From contig NZ_LT629748.1 of the NCBI RefSeq assembly GCF_900105005.1, positions 3,224,001 through 3,288,000 of the forward strand: DNA of 64,000 nucleotides, read 5' to 3'. The position numbers and the translations under genes were made by a program. Source of the DNA: Halopseudomonas litoralis (GTDB lineage Bacteria > Pseudomonadota > Gammaproteobacteria > Pseudomonadales > Pseudomonadaceae). The stretch's first letter is position 1, and each line of letters begins with the position of its first letter. The notes under the pieces were generated by a model that did not search any database, was not told the origin of the DNA, and saw nothing but the letters and a program-made list of their open reading frames with translations. Below are positions 26,781 to 35,482 of the stretch, piece by piece.

Positions 26781-27707
26781 ATGAAAGCAGCTGTCATTAC
26801 TGAACGCGGCGCAACGCCCGTCATGCAGGAATTCAAGAAACCGACTCCCCAGGAAGGCGCCGTACTTATTCATGTCGATACCGCCGGCCTGGGTGGCTGG
26901 GACGTACTCGGGGCCTATCGGTTAGGCGTCGAGTATCCCTGCGTGATTCGCGGCGAAGGGGTAGGCCGCACTGATGATGGAAGACGGGTTTATTTCGGCG
27001 AACGCTCAGTGCTTCCGTTTGGCGCTTGGGCGGAGCAAACAGTAGTTCCCGCGGAAGAAGTCTGGGATGTGCCGGACCACATCGATGATCGCACGGCTAT
27101 TACCATGGGGATCGCGGCCACAGGCGCGCTGGTTCCGCTGGAAGCAGCCAGTATCCAGCCAGGTGAAAACGTTCTGATCCTGGGCGGTACCGGCACGCTC
27201 GGCCAGATTGCTTTGCAGTTGGCACGCTACCTTGGGGCTGGCAGGGTCGTCGCAGCAGGCCGAAGCGAGAAGGCTCTGGCCCGGCTGACGGAACGTGGTA
27301 TCGCCGATGCAACAGTCTGTCTGAAAGGCGACGACACTGACGTTGCGGCGCTGAAAAAGGAAGCTGGCGACGGTTTCGACGTGGTGCTCGACCTGGTATG
27401 CGGACAGCCCATGCTCAATGCATTAAAAGCGGCGCGCTGGGGCGCCAGGATCATGACCATCGGGACCGGAGCCGGTCGTCAGGTCAATCTCGATATCGCC
27501 GATCTACTGTTCAAAACGCTTTCCTGCATCGGCACTGGCCAACGCCCCCCTGCAGACCGCCGCCAGATTTGGGAACGCCTTCTCACCATCGCAACCGAGC
27601 AGAACATTTCCGTGGATTATTCCGAGTTTGCCTTTGATGACTCGCCCCAAGCCTGGACGTCCCAGGTCGACGGTCCACACGCCAAGATCTACGCCAAAGT
27701 CAGATAG
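26781..27707 (+). CDS. Zinc-independent quinone oxidoreductase-like MDR protein (copy 1)
   Basis: 308 residues of the medium-chain dehydrogenase/reductase superfamily. It has an N-terminal GroES-like domain (GLGGWDVLGAYRLG, CVIRGEGVG), then a Rossmann domain with ILGGTGTLGQIALQLARYLGAGRVVAAGRS (near 133-162, split), the NADP(H)-type quinone reductase plan. Structural and catalytic zinc cysteines are missing. Likely reaction: NADPH-dependent reduction of a quinone or enone; substrate unknown. AGGAG lies before the ATG. More than 80% of residues match the frameshifted copy at 33467 over the shared C-terminal part. It is followed by an intrinsic terminator, so it is probably monocistronic. Confidence 0.88.
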   Translation: MKAAVITERGATPVMQEFKKPTPQEGAVLIHVDTAGLGGWDVLGAYRLGVEYPCVIRGEGVGRTDDGRRVYFGERSVLPFGAWAEQTVVPAEEVWDVPDHIDDRTAITMGIAATGALVPLEAASIQPGENVLILGGTGTLGQIALQLARYLGAGRVVAAGRSEKALARLTERGIADATVCLKGDDTDVAALKKEAGDGFDVVLDLVCGQPMLNALKAARWGARIMTIGTGAGRQVNLDIADLLFKTLSCIGTGQRPPADRRQIWERLLTIATEQNISVDYSEFAFDDSPQAWTSQVDGPHAKIYAKVR

Positions 27708-27807: not shown

Positions 27808-28131
27808 TCAAATCTGGGTTGGAGGAAACGTCACCGCCATCCCCTCATGTTCGGCCTGCAAGGTTACACAGCAGCCCAGCCGGCTCTGGGCAAGCCGGGG
27901 AGCCGCGACCCCTTCAAGCATGTCGTCTTCCATGCCATCCATTTCCGGCAACCGATCCAGCCACGACTCGTCAATATAAACGTGGCAGGTGGCGCACTGG
28001 CACGCCCCTCCACAATCACCCAGGATCCCTTCCAGACCGTGATTGGCCGCAACCTGCATGAGCGTCTGGCCCGCAGCGGCTTCTACAACCTGTTGACGAT
28101 CATCTGAAAAATTGAAAATTACAGTTGGCAT
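27808..28131 (-). CDS. Adrenodoxin-type [2Fe-2S] ferredoxin
   Basis: 107 residues from the ATG at 28129-28131; a longer frame to 28176 adds 15 atypical residues. Cluster ligands follow the C-x5-C-x2-C pattern at C40, C46 and C49, with the fourth at C87 (RLGCCV). The acidic MDGMEDDMLEG helix matches the partner-binding region of adrenodoxin/putidaredoxin-type ferredoxins that serve oxygenases. It is divergent from the Rieske-family pair starting at 28331, across a 199-bp region with a perfect inverted repeat. It is therefore the probable electron donor to that oxygenase. No ferredoxin reductase is encoded nearby. Confidence 0.92.
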   Translation of the reverse strand: MPTVIFNFSDDRQQVVEAAAGQTLMQVAANHGLEGILGDCGGACQCATCHVYIDESWLDRLPEMDGMEDDMLEGVAAPRLAQSRLGCCVTLQAEHEGMAVTFPPTQI

Positions 28132-28208
28132 TGGGGCTCTCCGCGCCTGACGGCTTCCGGTAACTGGGTAATTCATGATGCCTTAAGAAATCGCCGATTT
28201 GAACATTT

Positions 28209-28330: not shown

Positions 28331-29272
28331 ATGGTTAATAGCGCTTGGTGGGCTTCGGCTTTATCCGAGGCCGTAAACAATGAAAAGCCCCTGGCAGTTG
28401 TCTGCAATGGCGAGGAGCTAGCCCTGTTTCGGGATGGGCAAGGTCAGGCGTTTGCATTGGAAGACCGCTGCCCCCACCGCCGCGTGCCCCTATCCCTTGG
28501 CTGCGTTATAGAGAGCGGAATCCAGTGTGGCTACCATGGCTGGACATTTGACGGCGCCAGCGGCGCTTGCACGACGATACCCAACCTGCACGCCAATGAA
28601 CGAGTGCCTGCCCGATATGCGGCGCGACCCTACCCTGTGGCTGAGCGAAACGGATTTGTTCACGTCTGGTTAGGGGAAGGTGAGCCGAATGAGTCGGTGC
28701 CTGCGGCAACTTATCAGCCTGAAGGTTGCGAATATACCGGCGCGGGCACCATCAGTATTCTGCACGAGGAATATCTTGCCGCAATGCTCGATGGGCCCCA
28801 CTGCCTGATCAGTTTTGACGCGGTAAAGATGACTGACTTCTTTTTGGGCGATCCCCGTCTGCAGGATGACCATCTGGTTCTTGACCGAGGCGCAGTCTGG
28901 TCAACCAGGGTGCTGCCGCCGCAGTTCGTTGTCGACTATCCCCTGATCGTCCGTACGTCTGTTCCTGTGCGCGGAGGCGACATTCGCGTTGACCTTCTCA
29001 CCGAACAGGAAGCGCCGTTGTGCACCGTTTTCATTGCCTCGGGGGCCAACCGACGCGGTACCACCAGTATCTGTTGGCGAGGCTTCCTGCCCCAGAGTGA
29101 TGTCAGCCACGTACCGCTGCGCTGGAGGGTGGCACGCAAAATGAAACGCCCGCCCTTCCGAGTGCACACTCAGGTTGACGGCAAGCTCCTAGCCGCTCTG
29201 CTGGAAGCACCCTCCCGTGATCTGGCAAGGCTACATGACTCGTCACTAATCCCCCTACGTGCCGCCGTCTGA
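28331..29272 (+). CDS. Rieske-oxygenase-family protein with intact Rieske site and defective mononuclear-iron site
   Basis: 313 residues; GAGG precedes the ATG. An N-terminal Rieske domain has all four ligands: C47, H49, C66 and H69 (CPHRR and CGYHGW). The C-terminal half follows the VanA/KshA-type oxygenase plan, but the mononuclear-iron motif is damaged. Where N-x2-D-x2-H-x4-H is expected, A151, D154, H157 and F162 are seen, so the second His ligand is a Phe; D283 may be the carboxylate ligand. On its own it should not hold a normal 2-His-1-carboxylate iron. The next gene has exactly the opposite defect, so this protein is inferred to be the electron-transfer subunit of a two-protein oxygenase. 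Confidence 0.88.
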   Translation: MVNSAWWASALSEAVNNEKPLAVVCNGEELALFRDGQGQAFALEDRCPHRRVPLSLGCVIESGIQCGYHGWTFDGASGACTTIPNLHANERVPARYAARPYPVAERNGFVHVWLGEGEPNESVPAATYQPEGCEYTGAGTISILHEEYLAAMLDGPHCLISFDAVKMTDFFLGDPRLQDDHLVLDRGAVWSTRVLPPQFVVDYPLIVRTSVPVRGGDIRVDLLTEQEAPLCTVFIASGANRRGTTSICWRGFLPQSDVSHVPLRWRVARKMKRPPFRVHTQVDGKLLAALLEAPSRDLARLHDSSLIPLRAAV

Positions 29273-29293
29273 ATGCTGCCAGGAGAATTCAAA

Positions 29294-30331
29294 ATGCACA
29301 CTGTATCCACCAGCGACACCGCCGCAGGGCAGCGCACCAAGCGTCCCTCCGACTGGACTCCGGTCAATTATGATCTGCACGATACTTGGTTTCCGGTCTC
29401 GCACAGTCGCGACGTGACTTCAAGACCCATCCGCCGGATCATCCACTCCCAGCCTTATTTTCTCTGGCGTGAAAACGGTATACCTCAAGCGGCAGAGTTT
29501 CATCCATCACGGCTGGCAGCCCTGCGCCACTCCAGCAGCGCCTTCACCGGCGGTTCCGGCAGCTATCCTGTCATCGAACGCTACGGCTATATCTGGGCGT
29601 GGTATGGCGACCCCGACCACGCGGATATCCAACTATTGCCCCATATCCCCTTCCTGCCCCTGGACGGCAATATTCCGGGCTACACGCAGCGGACCGTCCG
29701 GTTCGACGCCTCATCGGCGCTCTCGGTGGAAAACCTCATCGACCTGACCCACGCCGATTTTCTGCATGCCAATACTATCGGCGACGGCATCTCCGAATCC
29801 GACGTCGTCGAAGTGGAATGGACGTCCGAAACGGTAACCAGAACCCGTATGGTCACGCAGAAGTCAGTCGCGCCAGTCATGCGCTGGGTGGGCGGGATAC
29901 GCGCCAGGTATCAGGATTTCCGTGCGGTGCTGCATATTCATCTGCGCAGCAATGTCTGCATCTCCTACCCACGGTTCCGGCCAGGCTACGACATTCCCAA
30001 TCTGCAGCCGTTTCTGCCGGTAGGCAGGCATCGCTCGCGTTGCGACGTGACCTTCAATACTACCGCTGCACCCTCCCCCTTTCGCTATCTGATGCCGCGA
30101 ATCAATTACATCATCCAGCCCCAGGACAACTCGGTGGTACGTCCGCAGAATGAGCGTTATCTGGACGCATCAGACAGGCGTGACCTGCATTCTCGCTTCG
30201 ATGCGCCTGGCACCCGATACCGTTACCAGATGGAACAACTGGCCGAGCGCCAGCGCCGAGGGGACTTCTCCTATGGCGCTGATGCCGAACCGGGACGTGA
30301 CATTACTGCATTGCTAGGCATGGATGGCTAA
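29294..30331 (+). CDS. Rieske-oxygenase-family catalytic protein lacking the Rieske cluster ligands
   Basis: 345 residues from the ATG at 29294, chosen because AGGAGA lies 7 nt before it; an ATG at 29273 would place this site inside the gene. The N-terminus starts like a VanA-type oxygenase (DTWFPVSHSRDV, then YPVIERYGYIWAWYGDPDHAD), but the segment between, which should carry CxH and CxxH, is cut to about 24 residues (67-90) with no cysteine. The mononuclear-iron motif is canonical: N147, D150, H153 and H158 (ENLIDLTHADFLH), with D278 the probable third ligand. It lies 21 bp after the Rieske-bearing gene. Inferred: catalytic subunit receiving electrons from that neighbour across a subunit interface. 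Confidence 0.88.
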   Translation: MHTVSTSDTAAGQRTKRPSDWTPVNYDLHDTWFPVSHSRDVTSRPIRRIIHSQPYFLWRENGIPQAAEFHPSRLAALRHSSSAFTGGSGSYPVIERYGYIWAWYGDPDHADIQLLPHIPFLPLDGNIPGYTQRTVRFDASSALSVENLIDLTHADFLHANTIGDGISESDVVEVEWTSETVTRTRMVTQKSVAPVMRWVGGIRARYQDFRAVLHIHLRSNVCISYPRFRPGYDIPNLQPFLPVGRHRSRCDVTFNTTAAPSPFRYLMPRINYIIQPQDNSVVRPQNERYLDASDRRDLHSRFDAPGTRYRYQMEQLAERQRRGDFSYGADAEPGRDITALLGMDG

Positions 30332-30404: not shown

Positions 30405-30779
30405 ATGTTTTCACACGTCACTTTGGGTACCAACGACCTATCCAGAGCTCGTATCTTCTACGATTCAGTGCTTGGCGCACTGGGTTATGAAAACCTTGGT
30501 AATAAGGAAACAGCATCGCTCTGGGGCGGCGCGGGCCCGCGCTTCGTCGTGCTAAAGCCCGCCGACGGTAACATAGCCAGTGTAAGCAATGGCCTGACAG
30601 TAGGCTTTGCAGCAGCGAACCGAGCCGCAGTGGATGAGTTCCACAAGTGTGCGCTGCAAGCAGGAGGCACAGATGCTGGCGCACCCGGATTCAGAGATGT
30701 GGGGCCGAATGTGTACGCAGCCTATGTGCGCGACCTTGATGGCCACAAGATAGTAGCCAGCTGCATCAGCGAGCGCTGA
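30405..30779 (+). CDS. Small VOC-family protein
   Basis: 124 residues, a single glyoxalase/bleomycin-resistance fold. It begins MFSHVTLGTNDLSRARIFYD with a His at position 4 and ends YVRDLDGHKIVASC, the usual VOC pattern with a late His before the final strand. AGGAGA lies upstream of the ATG. It follows the split oxygenase by 73 bp and is probably co-transcribed, so it may act on the oxygenase product or protect against it; this is inference. The 158 bp after it, before the convergent YdeP-like gene, show nothing beyond a short hairpin at the other gene's stop. Confidence 0.85.
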   Translation: MFSHVTLGTNDLSRARIFYDSVLGALGYENLGNKETASLWGGAGPRFVVLKPADGNIASVSNGLTVGFAAANRAAVDEFHKCALQAGGTDAGAPGFRDVGPNVYAAYVRDLDGHKIVASCISER

Positions 30780-30937: not shown

Positions 30938-33274
30938 TCAGGCTTCAGTTAATTCGAGCTTCGCTCCCCTCTCTCCAGGCAACAGTTTGATCGGTATAAA
31001 TTTTGATGCCGGGGTGAAACTGTCCACGCCGAAACTGTCCAGCGGAACCAGCGGATTTATCTCAGGATAGTAAGCCGCCGCCTGCCCTTCAGGAATATCG
31101 TAGGGAAGCAGCGTGAACCCTTTGACTTTCCGTTCAACCCTGTCATCCCACAACGAAACCAGATCAACCTTCTCGCCGGCCTCGAAGCCCAGCCGGTCAA
31201 TGTCCGCCTGGTTGATGAACAATACTTCGCGCTGCCCGGATACGCCCCTATAGCGGTCGTTCAGGCTGTATATCGTGGTGTTGTACTGATCGTGAGAGCG
31301 CAAGCTCTGGACAATCAGATCGTGGCGCTGCCCACTGGCCCGCACCTTCTCGTGAACCAGACTATCCGGCAGGAAGGTAGCTGAAAAACGCGCCTTCTCG
31401 GTGCTGGTACGCCACACACGCTGGCTGGCCGAGTTGGGCAAGTGAAAGCCTCCAGGCTGTTTCAGACGGTCTTCAAACTGATCGAAACCGGGCACCGTCC
31501 GGGCAATCGCGTCCCGGATCAGCCGATAGTCGTCACGCATCGCCTGCCAGCTCACGGGATGATTGCCCAGCGTGGCCTCGGCGATGCCGGCTATGATCCA
31601 GGGTTCCGAGCGCATCTGCTTTGATAGAGGCTCTAGTTGCCCAAACGATGCGTGCACCATGCTGAAGGAATCCTCAACGGTGACGCATTGTGCGCCTGCT
31701 GCCTGTTGATCGATATCCGTTCTGCCAAGACACGGTAGAATCAGGGCGTCCCTGCCCACCATCAGATGGCTACGATTGAGCTTGGTGCTGATCTGCACCG
31801 TCAGCGCACAGTTCCTCAGCGCCTGATGAGTCAACACGCTGTCGGGCGTGGCTTGCGCAAAGTTACCCCCCAAAGCTACAAACACACGGGCTTCGCCCTT
31901 CAGCATGGCGTGGATAGCTTCAACGGTGTTATGGCCATTGCCGCGTGGCGGCTCGAAACTAAAGCTCTCCGCCAACCGGTCGAGGAATTCCTGCGGCGGC
32001 CTTTCGTTGATGCCCATGGTGCGGTCACCCTGAACGTTGCTGTGCCCGCGCACAGGGCAGAGGCCAGCGCCCAGGCGACCGACGTTCCCGCGCAATAGCT
32101 GCAGGTTTACTATTTCCTGAATAGTCGCCACGCCGTGATGATGTTGGGTGATGCCCATCGCCCAGCAGAAGATGACGTTGGAAGCCTCGCAATAGAGCTT
32201 GGCGGCCCTCTCGATCTGACCCAGACTCAGGCCTGATTGCTCAACGATATGCGCCCAATCGGTGGCGTCCAGTACCTCAAGATAGGCGGCAAATCCATCG
32301 GTCTGCAGGAGGATGAAGTCATCGTCCAGTACGCCGGAAACCCCGCGGCGTTGCGCATCTCTTTCCCATGCCAAAAGGAATTTTGCCATGCCTCGGAGAA
32401 TGGCCATATCACCACCCAGCGCCGGTTGAAAGAAATCCGTATGCATCGGTTTCGATCGGTTGGTGAGCATTTCCGACATCTTCTGCGGATGCTGAAATCG
32501 CTCCAGCCCGCGCTCCTTCAATGGGTTGAAACACACCACCTTCGCGCCGCGCCTGACGGCATCCCGCAGCGGCTCAAGCATGCGTGGGTGATTAGTGCCA
32601 GGATTCTGTCCCAGAACGAATATGGCATCGGCGTGCTCGAAGTCTTCGAAGGTCACCGTGCCCTTGCCCGTTCCCAGACTCCCGTTCAGCGCTACACCGC
32701 TCGCCTCATGGCACATGTTCGAGCAATCGGGAAAATTATTGGTACCGTAGGCACGGGCGAACAACTGGTAGAGAAAAGCCGCCTCGTTGCTGGCGCGACC
32801 CGACGTATAAAATTCAGCCTGATCCGGAGATTCGAGATGATTGAGGTGGCCGGCAATCACCGCAAACGCAGCATCCCAACTGATCGGAAGATACCGATCG
32901 GTCGCTGCGTCGTAGCGCACCGGTTCCGTCAAGCGTCCCTGGTATTCAAGCCAGTAGTCACTTTGCTCACGCAACTGGGTGACGCTGTGCCGGGCGAAAA
33001 ACGTGGCGTCCACGCGGCGGCTGGTCGCTTCCCAATTGATCGCCTTGGCGCCATTTTCACAGAATTTGACCGCGCCGGAATCTGGTGGATCGCCCCAGGC
33101 GCAACCGGGGCAATCAAAGCCTCCGTGTTGATTGGTTCTGAGTAACGCCTTGACGTTCTTGATGGGCTGTTCGCTGTTCAGCCACGCATGGGTAACGCTA
33201 AGCAACGCACCCCAGCCAGCTGCCGGGCCATTGTAGATTTTGAACTGCGTTTTGCGGTTATGTAACCAACTCAT
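30938..33274 (-). CDS. YdeP/FdhF-like molybdopterin oxidoreductase
   Basis: 778 residues from the ATG at 33272-33274 (GTG/TTG alternatives lie up to four codons upstream). It starts with the GGFDCPGCAWGDP motif typical of the YdeP family and continues with molybdopterin-binding features (NMCHEASGVALNGSLGTGKGTVT in two parts, FVLGQNPGTNHPRML, GNVGRLGAGLCPVRGHSNVQGDRT in two parts). A C-terminal molydopterin-dinucleotide domain follows (SHDQYNTTIYSLNDRYRG, split). Family members resemble formate dehydrogenase H; in E. coli YdeP is linked to acid resistance, but the reaction is unproven. No partner subunit is adjacent. It is divergent from the frameshifted MDR gene. Confidence 0.9.
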   Translation of the reverse strand: MSWLHNRKTQFKIYNGPAAGWGALLSVTHAWLNSEQPIKNVKALLRTNQHGGFDCPGCAWGDPPDSGAVKFCENGAKAINWEATSRRVDATFFARHSVTQLREQSDYWLEYQGRLTEPVRYDAATDRYLPISWDAAFAVIAGHLNHLESPDQAEFYTSGRASNEAAFLYQLFARAYGTNNFPDCSNMCHEASGVALNGSLGTGKGTVTFEDFEHADAIFVLGQNPGTNHPRMLEPLRDAVRRGAKVVCFNPLKERGLERFQHPQKMSEMLTNRSKPMHTDFFQPALGGDMAILRGMAKFLLAWERDAQRRGVSGVLDDDFILLQTDGFAAYLEVLDATDWAHIVEQSGLSLGQIERAAKLYCEASNVIFCWAMGITQHHHGVATIQEIVNLQLLRGNVGRLGAGLCPVRGHSNVQGDRTMGINERPPQEFLDRLAESFSFEPPRGNGHNTVEAIHAMLKGEARVFVALGGNFAQATPDSVLTHQALRNCALTVQISTKLNRSHLMVGRDALILPCLGRTDIDQQAAGAQCVTVEDSFSMVHASFGQLEPLSKQMRSEPWIIAGIAEATLGNHPVSWQAMRDDYRLIRDAIARTVPGFDQFEDRLKQPGGFHLPNSASQRVWRTSTEKARFSATFLPDSLVHEKVRASGQRHDLIVQSLRSHDQYNTTIYSLNDRYRGVSGQREVLFINQADIDRLGFEAGEKVDLVSLWDDRVERKVKGFTLLPYDIPEGQAAAYYPEINPLVPLDSFGVDSFTPASKFIPIKLLPGERGAKLELTEA

Positions 33275-33355
33275 CCGATTCACCAAGTGCGGGTGCTTGG
33301 GTCAGAGTATCGCGAAGAGACTTTAGAAATCCTGCATTCGCCACGCCCCGTTCTT

Positions 33356-33466: not shown

Positions 33467-34395
33467 ATGAAAGCAGCTGTCATTACCGAACGCGGCGCCC
33501 TTCCCGTCAAGCAGGACTTTAAGGAACCGGAAGCCCAGGACGGCGCGATACTGATCGATGTTGAGACTGCAGGCCTCGGCGGCTGGGACGTGCTCGGCGC
33601 GTATCGATTGGGCGTAGCCTACCCCTGCGTCATCCGGGGCGAGGGCGTCGGTCGCACGGTGGAAAGCGAGTGTACTTCGGCGAACGTTCTGTACTGCCTT
33701 TTGGCGCTTGGGCCGAACGCACGCTGGTCCCTGCCGAAGAAGTCTGGGATGTGCCGGACCATATCGATGACCGCACCGCCATCACCATGGGTATCGCCGC
33801 AACCGGCGCGTTGATTCCGCTGGAAACCGCAAAGATTCAGCCCGGTGAGACCGTATTGATCCTCGGCGGTACCGGCACGCTCGGGCAGATCGCCTTACAG
33901 CTTGCCCGTTATCTGGGAGCAGGCAAGGTCGTTGCCGCAGGCAGAAGCGAAGCGGCTCTGGCACGCTTGAAAGAGCGGGGAATCACCGACGCGACGGTCT
34001 GCCTAAAAGGCGACGAAACTGATGTGGCGGCACTCAAGGCCGAAGCCGGAGAAGGTTACGACGTAGTGCTTGATCTGGTATGTGGTCAACCCATGCTAAA
34101 TGCATTGAAGGCAACGCGGTGGGGAGCACGCATCGTTACCGTCGGCACCGGTGCGGGACGGCAACTCAACCTGGATATAGCTGATCTTTTATTCAGAACG
34201 CTTTCATGCATCGGTACCGGTCAGCGCCCTCCGGCGGATCGTCGCAAAATCTGGGAACGCTTACTGGATATCACCACCACGGAGAATATCACTGTGGACT
34301 ATGCCGAGTTTGACTTCGACGAGACACCAAAAGCTTGGGAATCACAGGTAAATGGCCCACACGCAAAAATCTACGCAAGGGTTAGTGAATCTTGA
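33467..34395 (+). pseudogene. Frameshifted second copy of the MDR quinone-oxidoreductase gene
   Basis: The N-terminal part (MKAAVITERGALPVKQDF to GEGVGRT, 33467 to about 33658) and the C-terminal part (YFGERSVLPFGAW onward, from about 33673) lie in different frames. Compared with the intact gene at 26781, four bases are missing between CGCAC (ending about 33658) and the YFGERS codons, where the intact copy has TGATGATGG and this one GGTGG. The first frame runs on into unrelated codons and stops at 33814. Both parts are otherwise well conserved, as are ribosome-binding site and promoter, so the loss looks recent. A sequencing error or a translated second part from the GTG at 33670 are alternatives. 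Confidence 0.8.

Positions 34396-34430: not shown

Positions 34431-35482
<1,052 letters not shown>

Follow-up and report, generated by a model that had tools for sequence, protein, structure and literature searches.

The view that electrons cross between the subunits of Rieske oxygenases rests on structures and on mutants of the bridging residue, in enzymes whose subunits hold both metals. Here we describe two adjacent genes in Halopseudomonas litoralis, located within a window of 64,000 nucleotides (the whole stretch of DNA analysed, positions 3,224,001 to 3,288,000 of NZ_LT629748.1, the one contig of a 3.99-Mb genome), whose products, P1 and P2, divide the metal sites between them. P1 carries the ligands of a [2Fe-2S] Rieske cluster and has lost the mononuclear-iron site; P2 carries the mononuclear-iron ligands and has lost the cluster. 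We consider it probable that the two are chains of one terminal Rieske oxygenase and work as an obligate pair.

Among solved structures, dicamba O-demethylase DdmC and guaiacol O-demethylase 7qwt are the two closest in sequence to each chain; both are homotrimers and differ from P1 and P2 in having both metals in one chain. Precedents for split metals exist in Micromonas chlorophyllide a oxygenase (MpCAO) and in NdmC/NdmD. MpCAO is likewise one oxygenase in two polypeptide chains, with the Rieske site reportedly assigned by Kunugi in 2013 to one chain and the iron to the other. By ligand pattern and by pairing, P1 and P2 also place their metal centres on two co-occurring partner chains, a comparison for which the MpCAO type is defined partly from general knowledge. 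An excerpt of one paper states that MpCAO was earlier suggested to be a heterodimer, and likely a trimer of dimers (PMC9615114). MpCAO differs in belonging to an alga and to chlorophyll synthesis, whereas P1 and P2 come from Proteobacteria, from adjacent genes in catabolic-looking surroundings, and have a VanA/dicamba-type catalytic domain. NdmC, of the 7-methylxanthine N7-demethylase NdmC/NdmD/NdmE, is also an iron chain without a Rieske cluster that obtains one from another protein, according to excerpts of the source (PMC4408171); there the reductase NdmD carries the fused Rieske domain, and NdmE, which resembles glutathione S-transferase, takes part. In contrast, the cluster of the P1/P2 pair lies on an oxygenase-shaped chain that has no reductase domains. 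We found no description of the bacterial pair in open-licence papers. The features of the pair, in positions of the window, are as follows.

28331..29272, + strand: P1, Rieske-bearing chain, 313 amino acids (open reading frame, Pfam, alignment; oxygenase fold in the model, catalytic site dead)
28469..28477, + strand: P1 Rieske ligands C47 and H49 (CPH), in 84/84 homologues
28526..28537, + strand: P1 Rieske ligands C66 and H69 (CGYH), in 84/84 homologues
28781..28816, + strand: lost mononuclear-iron motif of P1, A151, D154, H157 and F162 (alignment of 84 homologues)
28790-28792, + strand: P1 D154, in the column of the bridging Asp, invariant (84/84)
29294..30331, + strand: P2, mononuclear-iron chain, 345 amino acids (VanA_C domain; N-terminal domain Rieske-like, without cluster)
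29498..29563, + strand: P2 remnant F69-S90 at the site of the missing Rieske cluster loops, no Cys
29732..29767, + strand: P2 motif N147-D150-H153-H158, the bridging Asp and two iron His, in 85/85 homologues
30125..30127, + strand: P2 D278, third iron ligand, in 84/85 homologues

The P1 stop codon (29270-29272) is followed by 21 base pairs (bp) and then by the P2 ATG at 29294, in the same frame and on the same strand; coordinates, strand and spacing agree with those of the initial annotation, which had been made from this DNA alone and had first proposed a two-chain oxygenase here. The closest named relative at the locus, among the matches listed, is Halopseudomonas bauzanensis.

The homologues counted above were obtained by scanning genome contigs with a P2 alignment, which gave 100 confirmed loci, the best 80 of which were used. 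Together with the window's own genome and four plasmid records, the fetched loci supplied 84 P1 and 85 P2 sequences (76 distinct of each), P1 being absent from locus L075 at a contig edge and P2 of L086 being clipped at a contig end. One of the two scan seeds, ENLIDLTH, partly selects for N147, D150 and H153 of P2, and the counts for these residues should be read with that in mind; the seed is missing from four fetched members (L027, L045, L070 and L073), the P2 sequences of the own genome and the plasmids were obtained without it, and no seed selected for H158 or D278 of P2 or for any P1 residue. Hosts among the best 80 include Halopseudomonas, Pseudomonas, Stutzerimonas, Marinobacter, Paraburkholderia, Polaromonas, Massilia, Zoogloea, Thauera and Aromatoleum, as well as many sphingomonads, Acidocella, Hyphomonadaceae and others. 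The plasmid records, from Massilia putida, Novosphingobium resinovorum and Croceicoccus marinus (two records), hold the full-length pair in the same order; their annotations label parts of it 'Rieske protein' and 'oxygenase' and draw no link between them.

We observed that the complementary losses are identical, without exception, across the Gamma-, Beta- and Alphaproteobacteria. The Rieske pattern C-x-H...C-x2-H and the iron-binding His-His-Asp, rather than standing in one chain, lie the first on P1 and the second on P2 in every one of the 84/85 sequences. In the alignment all four cluster ligands of P1 are invariant, position 162 is F, I, L, M or V and never His, position 151 is never Asn, and H157 is not conserved (His in 7/84 at that column); the ligand set, and the losses marked by A151 and F162 in the single sequence, are fixed in the family. 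D154, on which the initial annotation had not commented, is kept in every P1, despite the lack of an iron site. On the P2 side, N147, D150, H153 and H158 stand as first reported, as does D278, whose one missing row is a gap in a truncated sequence. Nowhere in the 85 P2 homologues did we find a CxH or CxxH motif, and the reduced Rieske region, put earlier at about 24 residues, comprises 22. Pfam gave the same division: P1 matched Rieske (74.6 bits), with Rieske_2 slightly under its cut-off and with no match to VanA_C, to another catalytic-domain family or to any flavin, reduced nicotinamide adenine dinucleotide (NADH) or reductase domain, and P2 matched VanA_C (PF19112; 113.9 bits against a gathering cut-off of 23.5) and no Rieske family. 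The mean majority share is 0.69 in the Rieske domain of P1 vs 0.55 in its other half, and 0.72 in the catalytic domain of P2 vs 0.67, so that the more conserved half of each chain is its functional half. L128, which scored lowest among the pairs from the genome searches and whose nearest family members stand at ~43-44% for P1 and 49% for P2, has the same metal split as the rest; it occurs together with L124 in one sphingomonad genome (G701), which therefore carries two pairs.

One metal site is truly gone from each chain, as would be expected of decayed duplicates, that is, of two oxygenase genes losing function or of regulatory pseudo-subunits that belong to a different, complete oxygenase. 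Yet the open frames are full-length in 84/84 P1 (301-327 amino acids) and in 83/85 P2, the other two ending at contig ends, and across three classes the retained ligands never vary and the losses stay the same; we regard decay as very improbable. We give even less credence to an arrangement like that of NdmC (PMC4408171, in the parts cited above), in which P2 would be fed by a Rieske-bearing reductase encoded elsewhere and P1 would be structural. That precedent is real, but the Rieske site of P1 is complete in 84/84 members and travels with P2, and P1 has no reductase domain of its own by Pfam, the genome not having been searched for a Rieske-bearing reductase.

The initial annotation had set beforehand, as a test of the two-chain proposal, that the genes should occur as neighbours with the same complementary losses, and this was borne out. 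P1 lies directly upstream of P2, on the same strand, in 79/80 fetched loci (the 80th contig starts inside P2), with gaps of -17 to 105 bp that depend on the start codons chosen. In a genus sample P1 occurred in 8/37 genomes and P2 in the same 8. In a family sample P2 was found in 13/248 genomes and P1 (expectation value, E <= 1e-45) in the same 13; in the family of a Sphingobium genome P2 was found in 4/199 and P1 in the same 4, with five copies of each, and the P1 and P2 coordinates listed in the family samples are adjacent. No genome among the 248 and 199 was found with one gene of the pair alone, and no solitary or full-ligand member of either family was seen among the sequences examined, although these searches scored the best few candidates per genome and a weak solitary relative could escape them. 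The Pseudomonas fluorescens isolate PS662 shows the pair on two different contigs, as L043 and L044. In a phylum sample of 398 genomes P2 was found in none but its own (E <= 1e-25), and the P1 profile reached 51 other genomes, mainly through residues 1 to ~125. Nineteen of these places were read, and both metal motifs were present in 13 by a strict pattern and in six by eye (five with shorter His spacing, one without the Asn); they are therefore ordinary oxygenases.

A model of P1 fused to P2 gave a predicted template-modelling score (pTM) of 0.84, with both chains predicted to retain the Rieske-oxygenase fold and to be placed relative to each other with confidence. P1 has the whole oxygenase fold in the model, corresponding overall to that of a Rieske oxygenase alpha-subunit, and its best fold match is DdmC; each fold-search match is to a single oxygenase chain, so the interface is not given by these searches. 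These results bear on the possibility that P1 acts as a soluble carrier of electrons, a Rieske ferredoxin that has an old oxygenase as its scaffold and docks briefly on a stand-alone P2 oligomer. P1 does not belong to the AndAb/MocE type of Rieske ferredoxin, a single domain of ~100 residues, as judged by its 313 amino acids and by family scores under the cut-offs (AndAb 46.3 vs 150; MocE 28.4 vs 136.15). Such a carrier would have no need of the dead P1 domain, in which D154, R186, W190, W249 and R250 are among the residues kept in 97% or more of the distinct members. The fold in the model, the consistent pairing with P2 and the confident predicted placement, the last without a valid control, likewise speak against a free carrier, which appears unlikely.

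P1 and P2 show marginal direct sequence similarity, and a profile comparison could align no more than 90 columns, which lie at the N-terminal end. In a tree of 17 complete oxygenases, 17 P1 and 17 P2, each chain formed one clade (stem support 100/99 for P1, 100/100 for P2), and the clades did not join: P2 grouped with VanA-type oxygenases (83/83) and P1 elsewhere (91/84). The two chains are thus not mutual closest relatives in the tree, a further argument against decayed duplicates, subject to the long stems (1.7 and 2.33). Because of these stems the tree is weak evidence that P1 and P2 may be of separate origins.

The co-occurrence, the fixed losses and the fused model all support the proposed two-chain oxygenase, which might operate as follows. 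P1 and P2, both shaped like oxygenase subunits, could assemble head-to-tail in the manner of ordinary Rieske oxygenases. The cluster on P1, the only one in the complex, would be reduced by a ferredoxin, the Fer2 protein of 27808-28176 where linked, or by another donor; the electron would then pass over the P1-P2 interface, presumably via D150 of P2, to the only mononuclear iron, on P2, where substrate and O2 would be bound. In the Rieske oxygenase CntA the centres are 44 Å apart within a subunit and 12.2 Å apart across the interface, according to an excerpt of PMC7948474, so that a P1 cluster next to a P2 iron site would call for no chemistry beyond what is already known. The new aspect is that inter-chain transfer would be the only possible electron route. 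With donor and acceptor on separate chains, it would be possible to empty, reduce or mutate either centre by itself, and the split pair would constitute a natural test of electron passage between oxygenase subunits.

Several points weigh against this interpretation. Two types of chain cannot alternate evenly in a head-to-tail trimer, which raises the question of how a three-fold ring could be formed from two kinds of subunit. The invariance of D154 in P1 is left unexplained. The pTM of 0.84 expresses confidence of placement, without chain arrangement or metal-metal distance, and it lacks a valid control, since a control fusion of P2 with the neighbouring downstream short-chain dehydrogenase/reductase (SDR; 21 rows) did not fold (predicted local distance difference test score 37.9, pTM 0.26). 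Since the sampled genomes are related, their counts do not represent independent events. A ferredoxin gene accompanies the pair in some loci only (31/84). The physical complex, its stoichiometry, the electron path and the oxygenase activity are inferred. Possibly, although we hold this at somewhat less than an even chance, the pair represents a bacterial lineage of Rieske oxygenases with its metals on two obligate, permanently specialised subunits. These would form a ring that is mixed or has an even number of chains, such as P1(3)P2(3), in contrast to the usual head-to-tail homotrimer, with D154 of P1 serving a second subunit contact not seen so far.

Three neighbouring genes are considered together with the pair.

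27808..28176, - strand: [2Fe-2S] ferredoxin, divergent, candidate electron donor (Pfam Fer2)
26781..27707, + strand: oxidoreductase of the zinc-binding dehydrogenase family, pathway neighbour (Pfam; loci of relatives)
30405..30779, + strand: small protein like those of the VOC/glyoxalase families, downstream (clusters with the Glyoxalase-family protein of L073)

Pfam gave no match for the 30405..30779 protein itself, and a promoter scan found no promoter. The divergent ferredoxin had been named as the donor, and this part of the initial annotation stood only in part. A Fer2-type gene occurs in 31/84 loci, mainly Halopseudomonas-like and alphaproteobacterial (32 by motif, minus L077 and L090, spurious by eye, plus L024), in a set made up of the window, L012-L014 and L023-L102, which differs from the 84 of the P1 set and has flanks of varying length. 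By motif, no such gene was seen in the fetched flanks of P. fluorescens-type Pseudomonas, Stutzerimonas, Paraburkholderia, Thauera, Aromatoleum and Zoogloea loci. In Halopseudomonas and the sphingomonads the Fer2 protein could plausibly serve as donor.

Other neighbours vary with the host. Pseudomonas loci contain SDRs, a fused type III coenzyme A (CoA)-transferase, an acyl-CoA dehydrogenase, an APH-family protein, a glyoxalase-type protein and a major facilitator superfamily (MFS) transporter. Betaproteobacterial loci contain an MMPL transporter, a YCF48-like protein and MFS, some of them with an alpha-beta ring-hydroxylating oxygenase; a dehydrogenase of the 26781-27707 type occurs in Massilia and other beta loci, and in Massilia putida it immediately precedes P1. 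Alphaproteobacterial loci contain LLM luciferase-like enzymes, a flavin adenine dinucleotide enzyme, a sulfotransferase and a TetR regulator. A cytochrome P450 is near the pair in Massilia (annotated) and in Paraburkholderia xenovorans LB400 (by motif). The SDRs, acyl-CoA dehydrogenase, CoA-transferase, MMPL and MFS transporters, LLM flavoenzymes and P450 suggest breakdown of a hydrophobic compound.

Because the pair is present in LB400, membership of the abietane (dit) cluster was suspected. A six-frame motif scan of LB400 chromosome 3 (~620-695 kb region) showed, besides the pair, one Rieske-pattern match taken as spurious and no further convincing oxygenase, and for this reason the pair was not assigned to dit; excerpts of the dit-gene literature contained no link to it.

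Downstream in the window the pair is adjoined by an FdhF/YdeP-type molybdopterin oxidoreductase (30938-33286, - strand; TIGR01701, 942.6 bits). An apparent second copy of the 26781-27707 dehydrogenase lies at 33467-34395 (+ strand), split into overlapping open reading frames (33467-33814 and 33670-34395), and adjoins transposase-like frames at 34588-35352 (- strand), of IS3 type by eye. In the sphingomonad plasmid loci L013 and L014, the annotated neighbours include F420 biosynthesis genes and several LLM/F420-type enzymes.
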